From Arthrobacter sp. SDTb3-6 (GTDB taxonomy: Bacteria > Actinomycetota > Actinomycetes > Actinomycetales > Micrococcaceae), in NCBI RefSeq assembly GCF_013376095.1, contig NZ_JAAMFN010000021.1, positions 1 through 64,000 of the forward strand: 64,000 nucleotides of DNA. Reading direction: 5' to 3'. Positions 14,534 through 33,677 of the stretch are shown here, piece after piece; the first letter of the stretch is position 1; the number at the start of each line of letters is the position of its first letter. The position numbers and the translations under genes were made by a program. The notes beneath the pieces were generated by a model. It did no database searches. It was not told the DNA's origin and worked only from the letters and a program-made list of their open reading frames with translations.

Positions 14534-15115
14534 CTACTCTGCTGCCGCGGCTTCCTCGACGGCTTCGGCTTCGGCCACAACGGCGGGCTCGGCCAGGTGC
14601 ACGATCAGCAGCGACGCGTCGGTCAGCAGCTCAACGCCGGCCGGCAGGACCAGGTCGCTGGCGTGGACGTGCTCGCCGGCTGCGCGGCCGTTGATGTCGA
14701 TCTCGACGTGGGCCGGCAGGTCGGTGGCGTCGGCGGAGAGGCTGACGGACATTTCTTCCTGGTTCACGACGACGGACGGGGCCGGCTCGCCAACAATGAT
14801 GACGGGGACGTCAACGATGACCTTCTCGCCCTTCTTCACGGTCAGCAGGTCGATGTGCTCGACGATCTGCAGTACGGGGTCGCGCTGGACGTCCTTGACG
14901 AGGGCCAGGTGCTTTTCGCCGGCGACCGTGATGGTCAGCAGGGCGTTGGCGCCGCGGATGGCGCGGACGGTGGCGCGCTCCGGCAGGACGATGTGCAGCG
15001 GCTCGGCGCCGTGGCCGTAGATGACTGCGGGGATCTGGGCTGCGCGGCGGATGCGGCGGGCAGCGCCCTTGCCGAATTCGCTGCGGAGTTCGGCAGTGAG
15101 GTTCAAGTCAGACAT
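14534..15115 (-). CDS. rplY: 50S ribosomal protein L25/general stress protein Ctc
   Basis: This 193-residue protein of the long, two-domain L25 (TL5/Ctc) type binds 5S rRNA. The N-terminal L25 domain (residues 1-95) opens with ELRSEFGKGAARRIRRA and contains IPAVIYGHG. The C-terminal Ctc beta-domain (about 95-180) ends in an alanine/glutamate-rich tail typical of actinobacteria. A strong GAAGGAG site lies 6-7 bases upstream of the ATG. It is the first gene of the rplY-pth pair. It is separated from prs, its usual neighbour, by the inserted DUF559-nuclease unit. Confidence 0.93.
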   Translation of the reverse strand: MSDLNLTAELRSEFGKGAARRIRRAAQIPAVIYGHGAEPLHIVLPERATVRAIRGANALLTITVAGEKHLALVKDVQRDPVLQIVEHIDLLTVKKGEKVIVDVPVIIVGEPAPSVVVNQEEMSVSLSADATDLPAHVEIDINGRAAGEHVHASDLVLPAGVELLTDASLLIVHLAEPAVVAEAEAVEEAAAAE

Positions 15116-15328: not shown

Positions 15329-15456
15329 CTTATGCGCCGGACTGACATGGCAGTCCGGCGCATAAGGGCACGGAACTTTTCTTATGCTCCAAACCCACTC
15401 CCGGTTTGGCTCCAGTGAACGGGCTGCGCCAAACCCACCCCCGGTCCGGCGCATAA
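15329..15456. repeat. REP-like palindromes, family A (downstream flank of DUF559 gene A)
   Basis: There are two elements. The first is a perfect 16-bp inverted repeat, CTTATGCGCCGGACTG (15329-15344) and its complement (15351-15366), with a 6-base loop. The second runs from TTATGC (15382) to GCATAA (15456) and has an inner inverted pair GGTTTGGC/GCCAAACC (15403-15410, 15428-15435). The outer hexamers TTATGC/GCATAA and inner GGTTTGGC are shared with copies at 16411-16590 and 33576-33677. It ends 15 bases from the stop of the nuclease gene. Confidence 0.8.
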
Positions 15457-15471
15457 AAACCGGAACGCCGC

Positions 15472-16308
15472 CTATTTTTGCGAGCCATTGATCATCGCCA
15501 GGGCCTGCTGCACCCAGCCCAGCATGATGTCGGGGCGGCCCAGCACAACGGCAGCAGGAATGCGAAGGCACCACATTCCCTTGACGACGAGCAGGTTGTC
15601 CCGTCGCAGGTCTTCAGCCCATCCCTTGGCCGTGTTGTGGTACTCGGCGCCGTCCGTTTCCACGCCCAGGATGCCCTCAACCAGCAGGTCGAGGTGTCCA
15701 ACGCCGGGTACGTAAAACTGGCCCTGGACGTTAAGCCCGGCCTTGCGCACGTAGTACCTGGCCACGGTTTCAACGATGGACATCGACTGGGGATCGATCA
15801 TGTCAATGACGGCCCGCCCCCGGGTGTCCTCCCGTCCGGCAAATGCGGCACGCAGCTGGGGAATGGTGCATTCCTTCAGCACCACCGCGGACTCCAGGAC
15901 CACGAGCGCGTCGACCTCGGAACCGCACTTGACGCATTGGCGCAGAATGTCCATCAGGGTCTGCTGCCCGCTGACCTTGTGCACCACGCATCCGGGAACG
16001 GGCCGCCCGTGGGCCGCAGCCACATGCGGCACGGGCGGCGACTTGATAATCCACAGGCCCAGTTGTTCAGCCTTCGTGAAACATGTCCGCCGCGCCTGGT
16101 GCCGGGCAAGGCGGACATCAAGGGGATCTGCGTCCGGCAGCGCATAATAGCCCCGGCCGATCCGTTGGATTTGCCCCGCGTCCTCGGCCTTTTTCATGGC
16201 CCAGGGCGTGCATCCCCGGACCAGCAGGTCCTTGCGCCGGGCAACCTTGCCGTACCAGGCCACTTCCTCTTCAACCGAGCGGGAATTGAGTGCCTTTGAA
16301 TTCTCCAT
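15472..16308 (-). CDS. AbiEi-like winged helix + DUF559 nuclease-fold protein (paralogue A)
   Basis: This 278-residue protein starts at ATG 16308 (GTG/ATG alternatives lie upstream, such as ATG 16317). Residues about 15-60 form a winged helix like that of AbiEi-type antitoxins (VARRKDLLVRGCTPWAM, then IGRGYYALPDADP). The C-terminal about 110 residues match the DUF559/Vsr-like PD-(D/E)XK fold: GVGHLDLLVEGILGVETDG with the predicted metal-binding D and ExD, then a YHNT motif and DLRRDNLLVVKGMWCLR. It interrupts the usual rplY-prs neighbourhood, is flanked on both sides by family A palindromes, and has a full-length paralogue at 19530. Predicted activity is DNA binding and cleavage or nicking; the target is unknown. 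An antitoxin-like regulator is the alternative. Confidence 0.7.
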   Translation of the reverse strand: MENSKALNSRSVEEEVAWYGKVARRKDLLVRGCTPWAMKKAEDAGQIQRIGRGYYALPDADPLDVRLARHQARRTCFTKAEQLGLWIIKSPPVPHVAAAHGRPVPGCVVHKVSGQQTLMDILRQCVKCGSEVDALVVLESAVVLKECTIPQLRAAFAGREDTRGRAVIDMIDPQSMSIVETVARYYVRKAGLNVQGQFYVPGVGHLDLLVEGILGVETDGAEYHNTAKGWAEDLRRDNLLVVKGMWCLRIPAAVVLGRPDIMLGWVQQALAMINGSQK

Positions 16309-16410
16309 GCCACCCATGGTGTCCACACGCCGGCGGCCGCGGCAGCCCCGTCGTCGTAATTGTGGAAGAGCATGGCGTCCACCCAGCATGTGGAGGCATG
16401 GACGGCGTAC

Positions 16411-16590
16411 CTTATGCGCAGAACCCGGGCACGAATCCGGAGCATAAAAGCCGGACAGTTGGCTTATGCTCCGGACCCATGGCCGGTTTGGCGCCAGTGG
16501 ACTAGCTGCGCCAAACCCGGCCCGAGTCCGGAGCATAAAGGCAGGGCCGTTCCCGCATGCGCCAAACCCAGCCAGAGTCCGGAGCATAAA
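16411..16590. repeat. REP-like palindromes, family A (upstream flank of DUF559 gene A)
   Basis: There are three elements. TTATGC/GCATAA bound 16412-16447. A full element at 16463-16538 has a perfect 13-bp outer stem (TTATGCTCCGGAC with GTCCGGAGCATAA) and an inner stem GCCGGTTTGGCGC/GCGCCAAACCCGGC. A right half-element (GCGCCAAACCC to GCATAA) follows at 16560-16589. Head-to-tail partial copies suggest repeated local amplification. They end about 33 bases from the prs stop codon. Confidence 0.8.
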
Positions 16591-16622: not shown

Positions 16623-17603
16623 TTAGGCGTTGCCGTCAAACAGGGACGTGACGGAGCCGTCCTCGAAGACTTCCTTGATGGCGCGGGCCAGCAGCGGGGC
16701 GATGGAGAGCACGGTCAGCGTGGGGAAGCGCTTTTCGGCCGGGATGGGCAGCGTGTTTGTGACCACCACCTGGCGCGCGCCGCAGTTGGCCAGGCGTTCG
16801 GCGGCCGGATCGGAGAACACGGCGTGCGTGGCGGCGATGATGACGTCCTTGGCGCCGGCGTCCTTAAGCACGCGGACGGCGCCGGCAATGGTGCCGCCGG
16901 TGTCGATCATGTCGTCAATCAGCACGCAGGTGCGGCCTTCGACCTGGCCCACCACGGTCTTGGACACGGCCTGGTTCGGCACGGTGAGGTCGCGCGACTT
17001 GTGCACGAACGCCAGCGGCGCCCCGCCCAGCCGCTCCGCCCACTGCTCAGCCACACGCACACGTCCGGTGTCGGGCGAAACAACTGTGACGGCGTCGTCC
17101 CCCACAATTTCACGAATGTGGTCGGCCAGCAGCGGGATGGCGAAAAGGTGGTCCACGGGGCCGTCGAAGAAGCCCTGGATCTGGGCGGTGTGCAGGTCCA
17201 CGCTCATGATGCGGTCGGCGCCAGCGGTCTTGTAGAGGTCCGCGACCAGGCGGGCGGAGATCGGCTCGCGGCCGCGGCCCTTCTTGTCCTGGCGGGCGTA
17301 CGGGTAGAACGGGGCCACCACGGTGATGCGGCGGGCGGAGGCGCGCTTCATGGAGTCGACCATGATGAGCTGTTCCATGAGCCAGTTGTTCAGCGGGGCC
17401 GGGTGGGCCTGGATGACGAACACTTCCTTGCCGCGCACGCTCTCCCCCGAGCGGACGTAGATCTCACCGTTGGCAAAGTCGTAGGCAGACATTGGCAGCA
17501 GTTCGGTCTTCAGGCAGCGAGCCACTTCCTCGGCCAGCTCGGGGTGTGCTCGGCCGGACGCCAACACCAGTTTTTTGTCGCCGTTGTAGCTCAGTTCGCT
17601 CAT
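16623..17603 (-). CDS. prs: ribose-phosphate pyrophosphokinase
   Basis: This enzyme makes PRPP from ribose 5-phosphate and ATP for nucleotide, histidine and tryptophan synthesis. The 326-residue product has the family length. Visible motifs are SGESVRGKEVFVIQ, FYPYARQDKKGRGREPISAR, the metal site DLHTAQIQGFFDGPVDH, and the PRPP-binding loop VLIDDMIDTGGTIAGA. It lies 31 bases downstream of glmU in the same direction; glmU-prs is a conserved actinobacterial pair. Confidence 0.95.
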   Translation of the reverse strand: MSELSYNGDKKLVLASGRAHPELAEEVARCLKTELLPMSAYDFANGEIYVRSGESVRGKEVFVIQAHPAPLNNWLMEQLIMVDSMKRASARRITVVAPFYPYARQDKKGRGREPISARLVADLYKTAGADRIMSVDLHTAQIQGFFDGPVDHLFAIPLLADHIREIVGDDAVTVVSPDTGRVRVAEQWAERLGGAPLAFVHKSRDLTVPNQAVSKTVVGQVEGRTCVLIDDMIDTGGTIAGAVRVLKDAGAKDVIIAATHAVFSDPAAERLANCGARQVVVTNTLPIPAEKRFPTLTVLSIAPLLARAIKEVFEDGSVTSLFDGNA

Positions 17604-19083: not shown

Positions 19084-19241
19084 TAAGTGGCACTCCTGCC
19101 CGGACAGAGGTCCGTGAAGAAAACGTACGCAATGGGAAACAATCCAATGTTACCCGCTCGCAGCCGGTGCCCGTTCATCGCGCGGGGGTCTGGGCTGGGT
19201 GCCGGGGCCGCGTTGGGCGGGTGCCGGGGTGGGCCGGAATG

Positions 19242-19313
19242 TTCCGCCCATAGGATTCGAACCTATACTCCACAGCTCCAAAGGCTGGGGTGCTGCCGTT
19301 ACACCAGGGCGGA
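19242..19313 (-). tRNA. tRNA-Gln (anticodon TTG)
   Basis: The minus strand folds as a standard 72-nt tRNA. The acceptor stem is TCCGCCC/GGGCGGA with discriminator A. The D-arm is GGTGTAACGGCAGCACC. The anticodon loop CTTTGGA is closed by CCAGC/GCTGT-type pairs, and the T-arm carries GGTTCGAATCC. Anticodon TTG reads the glutamine codon CAA (and CAG by wobble). CCA is not encoded. A tRNA-Gln beside glmU-prs is common in this group. Confidence 0.93.
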
Positions 19314-19477
19314 ATGGGCACTGCTGCCTTACCGGCGCGGCCCACGAGAATCTAGTGTGCCACGGCCGGGACGTGTTTCGCGACTCGGGGCCCGCCAACG
19401 CGGTAATTTTGGCCGTTCCGGCGTGGCAAAGTTCATATGCTGCCGCCGACTTCCGTCAGGGGCTGGACGCGGTGGGA

Positions 19478-19506
19478 GTTGTGCCCCCGGTGTACCAGGC
19501 GCACAA
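19478..19506. repeat. REP-like palindrome, family B (downstream flank of DUF559 gene B)
   Basis: This imperfect palindrome runs from TTGTGC (19479-19484) through CCCCCGGT and ACCAGGC to GCACAA (19501-19506), 24 bases from the stop of gene B. Its core, TTGTGCCCCCGGTG, is shared with the element at 20455 on the other side of the gene. Confidence 0.65.
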
Positions 19507-19529
19507 TTCGGCTCCGGTCCTACCCCGCT

Positions 19530-20363
19530 TCACTTGCCCTCAATCTTTTCAAGCGCCTGCCGCACCCACTTCATCATGAGTTCCGGTTCTTCAAGCACCA
19601 TTCGGGCAGGTATGCGCAAACACCACACCCCGTTGACCACCAGCAGGTTGTCCCGTCGCAGGTCCTCTGTCCAGCCCTCCTGGGTGTTGTGGTAGGTCTC
19701 GCCGTCCGTCTCAACGCCCAAGATGCCGTCCACCAGTAAATCCAGGTGCCCCACGCCCCTGACGAAGAACTGCGCTTGGACGTTGAAGCCTGCCTTCCGA
19801 AGGTAATAGCGGCCAATGGTTTCGACTATTGACTGTGCTTGCGGGTCGATCATGCCGATGATTGCCCGGCCTGCCCCGTCTTCACGCCCGGAGAACGACT
19901 GCCGAAGTTGGGCAAAGGTGCACTTCTTGAGAACGATCGCGGATTCCAGGACACACAAGGCTTCCACTTCCGAACCGCATTTCACACATTGGTGGAGAAT
20001 GTCCATCAAGGTCTGCCTGCCGCGAACCCTGTGAACTATGCAGCCCGGCACGGGATGGCCGTGTGCCACGGCAATGTGGAGTCGTTCGGGCTCGCTGATG
20101 ACCCACAAGCCGAGCTGCCTGGCCTTGCTCAGGCAACTTCGCCGCCCACGCTTCTTCGCCAACAACACGTCCATGGGATCGGCATTCGGCAACCCAAAGC
20201 ATCCCGGCGCCACCATCTTGATCCGCCCCTCAAGCTGGGCCTGCGACAACTGCCATGCCGAGAAGCCGGCAGCGGTCAGATCCTTGCGCCGGGCGACAGT
20301 GCCGTACCCGGAAATGACAGCTTCCAACGTAGGGCCTGTCCGTTTTCTGCTCTGGTCCGCCAT
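19530..20363 (-). CDS. AbiEi-like winged helix + DUF559 nuclease-fold protein (paralogue B)
   Basis: This 277-residue paralogue of the protein at 15472 starts at ATG 20363 (MADQSRKRTG). The same order is seen: winged helix (VARRKDLTAAGFSAWQL and a GCFGLPNADPMDVLLAKK segment), a middle region sharing VKCGSEVEALCVLESA, and a C-terminal DUF559 fold with GVGHLDLLVDGILGVETDG, YHNT and LRRDNLLVVNGVWCLR. The predicted catalytic D and ExD are retained. It is inserted between tRNA-Gln and the ABC-F gene and flanked on both sides by family B palindromes, which differ from those around paralogue A. Function is unknown; DNA processing or anti-phage/abortive roles are both possible. Confidence 0.7.
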   Translation of the reverse strand: MADQSRKRTGPTLEAVISGYGTVARRKDLTAAGFSAWQLSQAQLEGRIKMVAPGCFGLPNADPMDVLLAKKRGRRSCLSKARQLGLWVISEPERLHIAVAHGHPVPGCIVHRVRGRQTLMDILHQCVKCGSEVEALCVLESAIVLKKCTFAQLRQSFSGREDGAGRAIIGMIDPQAQSIVETIGRYYLRKAGFNVQAQFFVRGVGHLDLLVDGILGVETDGETYHNTQEGWTEDLRRDNLLVVNGVWCLRIPARMVLEEPELMMKWVRQALEKIEGK

Positions 20364-20439
20364 TACCCCAGTCTGGCGTGCAGGCAATGTCCTGGCTGGC
20401 CCAACTTGTGGAACTGTGGATAAGGCATCGGGCCCGGAG

Positions 20440-20499
20440 GAAAACTCCGGACGGGTTGTGCCCCCGGTGCACTTGGGGCACAACCCGTCGCAAGTTTTG
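20440..20499. repeat. REP-like palindrome, family B (upstream flank of DUF559 gene B)
   Basis: A perfect 15-bp inverted repeat, GACGGGTTGTGCCCC (20450-20464) and its complement (20475-20489), surrounds a 10-base loop containing GTGCAC. An outer pair AAAACT/AGTTTT (20441-20446, 20493-20498) extends it. It lies between gene B (start 20363) and the stop of the ABC-F gene (20519). Confidence 0.75.
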
Positions 20500-33575: not shown

Positions 33576-33677
33576 TTATGCGCCGGATTCGCCGCGGGTT
33601 TGGCGCACGTTGTCCTGTGGCGCCAAACCCGGAATGGGTCCGGCGCATAAGAAAACCCGCCGTACCTTATGCGCCGG
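33576..33677. repeat. orphan REP-like palindrome, family A
   Basis: This is a full element with outer TTATGCGCCGG/CCGGCGCATAA (33576-33586, 33640-33650) and inner GGGTTTGGCGC/GCGCCAAACCC (33596-33606, 33620-33630). A half element, TTATGCGCCGG, follows at 33667-33677, 2 bases from the rsmI stop. It is the same family as the elements around the DUF559 gene at 15.5 kb, 17 kb away, but no nuclease gene is here. Confidence 0.75.

Follow-up and report, generated by a model that had tools for sequence, protein, structure and literature searches.

In the soil bacterium Arthrobacter sp. SDTb3-6 a gene for a putative nuclease (gene A) lies between rplY and prs with palindromes on both sides, and the question raised by this locus is whether gene and palindromes belong together. 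The window is the whole stretch of 64,000 nt that was analysed here; its relevant features are listed in Table 1. A first-pass annotation had suggested that a nuclease unrelated to RAYT transposases might take their part in a REPtron, a gene that spreads the palindromes flanking it. Its count of the palindromes, two on the downstream side of gene A and two and a half on the other, is exact by coordinates. The distance that it gave, about 100 bases on each side, is loose, with the upstream set spanning ~103 to 281 nt from the gene A start codon, and the inner stems that it described (GGTTTGGC/GCCAAACC) are missing from 15330-15365 and 16412-16447.

Table 1. Genes and palindromes around genes A and B, and a lone unit, in window coordinates.
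Feature	Position	Strand	Evidence
rplY, downstream neighbour of gene A	14534-15115	minus	ORF list, homology
Palindrome downstream of gene A, 36 nt, TTATGCGCC...GGCGCATAA	15330-15365		Fold, sequence
Full unit A downstream of gene A, 75 nt, two half units head to head	15382-15456		Sequence, genome search
Gene A, predicted AbiEi-type winged helix plus DUF559/MTES_1575 (EDxHD/Vsr-like) nuclease, 278 aa	15472-16308	minus	Pfam, AlphaFold2/Foldseek, invariant residues
Palindrome upstream of gene A, 36 nt	16412-16447		Sequence
Full unit A upstream of gene A, 75 nt, single hairpin (z -8.3)	16464-16538		Sequence, fold
Half unit A upstream of gene A, 31 nt	16559-16589	+	Sequence, genome search
prs, upstream neighbour of gene A	16623-17603	minus	ORF list, genus comparison
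Palindrome downstream of gene B, TTGTGCCCC...GCGCACAA	19478-19507		Sequence, flank alignment
Gene B, paralogue of gene A, 62% identical over the matched part	19530-20366	minus	Pfam, protein comparison
Palindrome upstream of gene B, GGGTTGTGCCCC...GGGGCACAACCC, also given as TTGTGCCCC...GGGGCACAA	20451-20488		Sequence, fold
Dispersed full unit A, no nuclease gene adjoining	33576-33650		Sequence, genome search, fold

The full unit A (75 nt) consists of two 31-nt half units, placed head to head with a spacer of 13 nt between them, and forms one long hairpin with the ends TTATGC/GCATAA; a GTAG-type 5' tetranucleotide foot is absent and TTATGC takes its place. The paired half units resemble the architecture of REPINs. 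The stretch 15330-16589 itself opens with TTATGC and closes with GCATAA, and no target-site duplication was seen there by eye. In single-stranded DNA folding, none of 200 shuffles did as well as the real sequence, with z = -8.3 for the 75-nt unit at 16464 and z = -8.5 for the 36-nt palindrome at 15330; the half unit alone did not rise above its shuffles (z -0.1). Allowing up to three mismatches, the half unit had 51 matches at 17 places in the host genome (4.31 Mb, 144 contigs) and the reversed pattern had none. A chance origin was rejected on the reversed-pattern control and the poorer folding of the shuffles. Several of the sites are tandem clusters, and at L003, L008, L016, and L021 such clusters form tandem repeats spaced 193–287 nt apart. 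By crude gene calls, which include an over-long frame for gene A, eight of 13 host palindrome loci have no overlapping ORF and five have some overlap. A Y1/RAYT transposase as engine in the host was rejected, as PF01797 had no match in the genome; the control matched in five of 14 genomes.

The protein encoded by gene A had been described beforehand as a winged helix joined to a PD-(D/E)XK/DUF559 domain. Both parts are matched in Pfam, AbiEi_4 at residues 12–58 (26.4 bits, cut-off 25) and the MTES_1575 restriction endonuclease family at residues 186–254 (28.5 bits, under the cut-off of 38.2). Foldseek aligned the AlphaFold2 model (pLDDT 87.8) with AbiEi (6y8q, E 3.5e-5) and Rv2827c (1zel, E 1.6e-4); the matches to the catalytic domain of I-Bth0305I (TMt 0.69–0.70, E 0.06–0.13) were non-significant, and those to the DUF559-type structure 3hrl and to Vsr 1cw0 both had E >0.1. 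The modelled fold is that of an AbiEi-like part joined to a putative EDxHD-homing/Vsr-like domain, with non-significant E values for the nuclease part. Residues E180, D207, E217, D219, and H224 are invariant in all 31 full-length homologues aligned, pointing to a candidate active site, and because of this invariance the nuclease is predicted to be active. Between residues 76 and 128, C76, H95, H100, C107, H110, C125, and C128 are invariant or nearly so and could bind metal. Pfam showed no known transposase domain in the protein, a profile search of solved structures gave no match, and neither did an NCBIfam search of three proteins.

Within the genus, relatives of the gene A protein (P0001) occur in 22 of 23 genomes. 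The earlier statement that gene A splits rplY from prs was borne out: rplY was matched in 22 of 23 genomes, with the gene beside it in five, absent in 16, where prs lies near rplY without such a gene, and not resolved in one, so that the empty junctions, for which the annotation had proposed to look, make up 16 of 21 resolved cases. Some of the empty junctions contain palindromes, by eye a degraded A-like pair in G005 and type S in G022 and G009. The five genomes with gene A at rplY–prs, which hold four separate places in the species tree, have 51, 4, 4, 15, and 14 type-A matches, some of which flank gene A in each. Type-A matches occur in seven of the 23 genomes and are zero in the other 16; the two that lack gene A (G013 with 2, G014 with 8) carry other relatives. 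Type S is matched 18 times in G022, 17 times in G006, and eight times in a third genome with an S-type gene (reversed controls 0–2), and elsewhere in the genus ten times in G002 (broken gene with S-like flank), ten in G012, nine each in G003 and G009, and 0–5 times in the others. The only genus genome without a P0001 relative, G010, has neither A nor S matches; its rplY is also the most divergent. The first-pass annotation had proposed to test whether palindrome number tracks the gene: copies away from the gene are commoner in carriers for type A (p = 7e-5, Mann-Whitney) and type S (p = 0.009), in a comparison that excludes flanking copies, assumes two flanking S copies for G022, and enters 45 for the 47 host A copies away from the gene, with ranks unchanged. 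Palindromes in relatives that lack any homologue had been named there as evidence against a link. Type S in G009, G012, and G003, which have P0001 relatives without S flanks despite 9–10 S matches, and type A in G013 and G014 touch on this in part, being palindromes without the matching gene; other relatives are present in all of these genomes.

The association is not confined to gene A in the host. P0001 matched two proteins in the host genome, itself and the product of gene B, which has a palindrome on both sides that is unlike unit A. A third host gene with a PF18741 match (L257, G000:C24:68800-71600; 315 aa) has matching flanks (score 19) with a third kind of palindrome, TGTTGCAG...CTGCAACA. 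Site B (window 19241-20488) is situated between a tRNA-Gln gene (19241-19313) and an ABC-F gene. Judged by neighbours, it is occupied by a gene of the AbiEi-DUF559 family in 22 of 23 genus genomes, some of them broken or cut, and with its several divergent lineages resembles an exchange hot spot.

We aligned 350 nt upstream of each gene to 250 nt downstream in both orientations and compared the scores with those obtained with the flanks of other genes. In Actinomycetes, 96 of 146 genes scored at least 13 and 77 at least 16, a value reached by 1.0–1.6% of mismatched pairs, which were drawn from the same sets; 50 of 146 genes had no flank match of at least 13. Orthologues are included, so not all loci are independent. 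Roughly two in three homologues tested across the class show this layout, with other palindromes. The genus set comprised 41 of 47 loci, leaving out L049, L052, L071, L073, L076, and L077 (short flanks or heavy truncation), and keeping the broken L072, L074, L075, and L078; L053 is a duplicate of L078. Its mean score was 18.2 against 10.0 when permuted (best of 20,000 permutations 12.8), with 26 of 41 loci at 13 or above and 20 at 16 or above (mismatched pairs 6.3% and 1.6%). Among distant homologues, mostly 35–45% identical, the mean of 57 loci was 18.9 against 9.9 and own flanks beat all 20,000 permutations; 34 scored at least 13 and 27 at least 16 (mismatched 4.2% and 1.3%). These were 57 of 59 loci, 40 of the 59 hand-picked; L129 and L130 were omitted for short matches, and L123 earlier as a genus locus. 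One record, titled Sporosarcina beigongshangi REN13 (L104, L107, L114; NZ_JADHDY...), carries Arthrobacter-type genes, and its name looks wrong.

A match to PF18741 is present in 141 of the 197 genomes of the class, a count that takes in very long fusion frames. The class search by this family returned mainly very long open frames (L192–L221), which we take to be helicase fusions, and 40 shorter candidates were therefore picked by hand among the matches listed; this set is neither random nor complete. For these stand-alone genes the mean was 23.1 against 10.5, own flanks again exceeded all 20,000 permutations, and 29 of 40 reached at least 13 and 26 at least 16 (mismatched 5.2% and 1.0%). An extra set without permutation, eight of ten loci after omission of the truncated L309 and of L311, had seven genes at 13 or more and four at 16 or more. 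A peculiarity of gene A alone was thus rejected, as other genus, distant, and class genes are flanked alike.

Placements of the same geometry elsewhere scored at least 13 in ten of 234 cases and at least 16 in one of 234, versus 20 of 41 genus genes at the latter score. For a blind control, twenty 20-kb stretches each were taken from G352 and G481, and called genes of 250–360 aa were scored (n = 112). Four reached at least 13 and two at least 16, both of the latter encoding AbiEi-DUF559 proteins. One of them (L295 1100-1958) is the L228 gene, which had been chosen beforehand; the other (L278 14842-15901) had not, and matches AbiEi_4, MTES_1575, and DUF559 in Pfam at E 0.0009–0.002, under curated cut-offs. 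Over all sizes, six of 444 ORFs scored at least 16: the two AbiEi-DUF559 genes, presumably one IS-transposase-like gene, and three others. These gene calls are crude and would miss cases; in the window both gene A and gene B escape this caller, and none of its 41 genes there scores 16 or more because starts are misplaced, while the starts of Table 1 give scores of 35 for gene A and 17 for gene B. The notion that any gene of such size would be so flanked was rejected on the one of 234 placements and two of 112 size-matched genes.

Dispersal of the flanking palindromes varies among families. A 5.6% sample of the G352 genome contained four full palindromes of the L256 type, which extrapolates to ~70, and the G481 sample contained none; the reversed G352 sample gave two 16-nt BLAST matches at E 0.005 versus a best real match of 8.5e-8. 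The L228 and L225 types were each found twice in an 8% sample of G481, the L303 and L304 types by one short match each, and the L229 and L302 types had no dispersed copy in this sample; reversed, the sample had no matches. One more kind of palindrome, GAGCGTGCGTG...CACACGACACGCC, was seen repeatedly in the G481 sample (L284 8776-9212, L285 6524, L301 4306). The family TGCGCAGGG-N5-CCCTGCGCA is present in nine of 295 genomes at 1–2 sites each, and TGCGCACC...GGTGCGCA at 0–5 per genome. Since dispersed copies occur in several genomes and other families are low-copy, palindrome expansion is real yet not universal.

A tree of 45 proteins unites the site-A genes in one clade (99/95) and leaves the 20 site-B genes included in more than one. 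The B genes of G000, G006, and G022 were rejected as one clade (AU p 0.00013, in a test set up after both trees had been seen), and these species form a clade in the housekeeping tree (99/98). Clade motifs, defined after viewing the genus palindromes, sort largely by protein clade: A is found in all five site-A genes, S, U, and V each in their own clade, and T in a B clade of five members as well as in the sister of that clade, which lies at a different site. The exceptions are A in L039, L044, and L060, T in L065, U in L047, and L042, which is without the Bq of its clade. Mantel tests of palindrome against protein similarity, which use no chosen motifs, gave weak correlations overall (rho 0.19, p 0.013, 31 loci) and within site B (rho 0.22, p 0.009, 15 loci). 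Palindrome similarity increases with protein similarity, and palindrome type tends to follow clade, with exceptions. At site A, flanks of the same locus are more alike than flanks across orthologues in nine of ten pairs. Elsewhere this was so in three of 19 pairs, and ten of the 16 failures are at site C, whose flanks are mostly unmatched. At an orthologous class site (L222/L223, proteins 82% identical), the flank-pair repeat of one genome is partly different in the other. Homogenisation or concerted change of flanks is limited to some loci and is not general, as the within-locus test fails in 16 of 19 pairs outside site A.

The association between gene and palindrome is strong, and from it we infer binding, cutting, and mobilisation. 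We regard it as an even bet that gene A and its flanking palindromes are one functional unit, similar to a REPtron and built on an unrelated enzyme. The boldest reading, extended to the family, sees stand-alone nucleases with an AbiEi winged helix and an EDxHD domain as engines dedicated to a large class of repetitive extragenic palindromes in Actinomycetes that has gone unrecognised. Every such gene would recognise, cut, and propagate its own palindrome and co-evolve with it, and the REPtron principle would have been invented independently with a nuclease of the restriction/homing type; we give this a probability of about 0.45. The AbiEi-like winged helix would recognise the cognate palindrome, and the EDxHD/Vsr-like domain would nick or cut at the palindrome or at a hairpin extruded by it. 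Repair of the break could then copy palindromes to new places and, rarely, the gene together with its palindromes. Neither excision nor recent insertion was seen, and the gene would mostly remain at its locus and be inherited there, like RAYT genes, for which passages of two papers describe long residence at a locus (PMC6006769, PMC8266576). The main tests (no Y1 match, link to copy number, empty rplY–prs junctions, class-wide flanks) do not speak against the first-pass idea of a REPtron without RAYT, which the palindromes without a matching gene qualify in part.

A different view of the same data would make the protein a DNA-binding regulator with the flanking palindromes as its own operators and the scattered copies as sites of its regulon, nothing being mobilised. 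AbiEi-type winged helices are regulators of their own promoters, and it would fit such a role that matched upstream repeats mostly lie ~30–300 nt from the gene, that some families are scarce away from it, and that palindrome and protein similarity rise together. However, the same palindrome also lies beyond the stop codon, the 75-nt composite units and tandem clusters of the host exceed the needs of a repressor, and the nuclease residues are invariant. Because of dispersal, downstream copies, and the conserved nuclease, we lean towards mobilisation rather than regulation, and we consider the operator view unlikely.

The gene with its flanks could also be a free-standing element of the homing type, which cleaves sites that lack it and enters them when the break is repaired, with scattered palindromes as by-products. 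The EDxHD fold match (at non-significant E), the divergent lineages of site-B genes, and the many site-A junctions without a gene would agree with this. A classical homing element interrupts its recognition site, whereas here repeats flank the gene; at the empty rplY–prs junctions no cognate site, junction mark, or insertion mark was recognised, and palindromes occur also where the gene is absent. Homing therefore strikes us as improbable.

We give little credence to the gene being a passenger, trapped by recombination between two palindrome copies whose spread is the work of an unrelated mobilising enzyme: palindrome families in genomes without the cognate gene and the lone unit in the window (Table 1) would be expected, but one gene family would have to be trapped repeatedly across the class, and at score 16 the only flanked genes among the 112 size-matched ones were the two AbiEi-DUF559 genes. 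A role in defence or self/non-self recognition, in which the nuclease would attack incoming DNA and the palindromes of the host would serve as protection or as decoys, is suggested by PADLOC matches of AbiEi to the N-terminal part of the protein but is very doubtful, since gene A adjoins rplY and prs with no AbiEii toxin among the window ORFs by eye, genes of the family adjoin the same neighbours in many species, relatives are on three of 72,556 plasmids and one of 50,697 phages (collections in which actinobacteria may be few), and the two-sided palindrome particular to each gene is left without a reason.

The gene A system shares several properties with REPtrons: a gene flanked by its own palindrome family with dispersed copies, head-to-head pairing of half units in the host, several gene–palindrome pairs per genome, long residence at a locus, and some genomes with palindromes and without the gene. 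It differs in that gene A encodes a winged helix and an EDxHD/DUF559 nuclease, and RAYTs are Y1 HuH transposases, in the lack of a GTAG foot, and in the low copy number of many palindrome families; in the host and in relatives the flanking palindromes of other families are dispersed. AbiEi antitoxins and Rv2827c share the N-terminal winged helix and middle region with the gene A protein, which has an extra nuclease domain and no AbiEii partner noted beside it. EDxHD homing endonucleases act as dimers on a target of nearly 60 bp, according to the parts consulted of PMC3943268; the catalytic fold of I-Bth0305I and this target length, near the 52–75 nt of composite palindromes in the gene A family, are possible points of likeness, the fold match being at non-significant E, while those enzymes are described there as derived from phages and belonging to group I introns and gene A is chromosomal, free-standing, palindrome-flanked, and equipped with an AbiEi-like DNA-binding part. 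DUF559 is treated as a Vsr-like domain in passages of PMC12907096, in line with the Foldseek matches to 3hrl and 1cw0 above (both E >0.1); the word "palindrome" is absent from the main text of that paper. CGTC-tagged REPs are likewise palindrome families without RAYT, with a CGTC foot and no dedicated enzyme known in the parts of PMC3733652 consulted, whereas gene A is a candidate enzyme gene between the copies. Among the matches listed from open-licence PMC papers, none describes an engine for actinobacterial repetitive palindromes or pairs a DUF559/AbiEi nuclease with palindromes.

The gene A system seems to represent a new type of self-spreading repeat. If this is true, a common gene family without known function (PF18741) would gain a testable role, a partnership like that of RAYTs and their palindromes would have arisen with an unrelated nuclease, and each gene–palindrome pair would be a ready pair of protein and target for studying how nuclease specificity changes.
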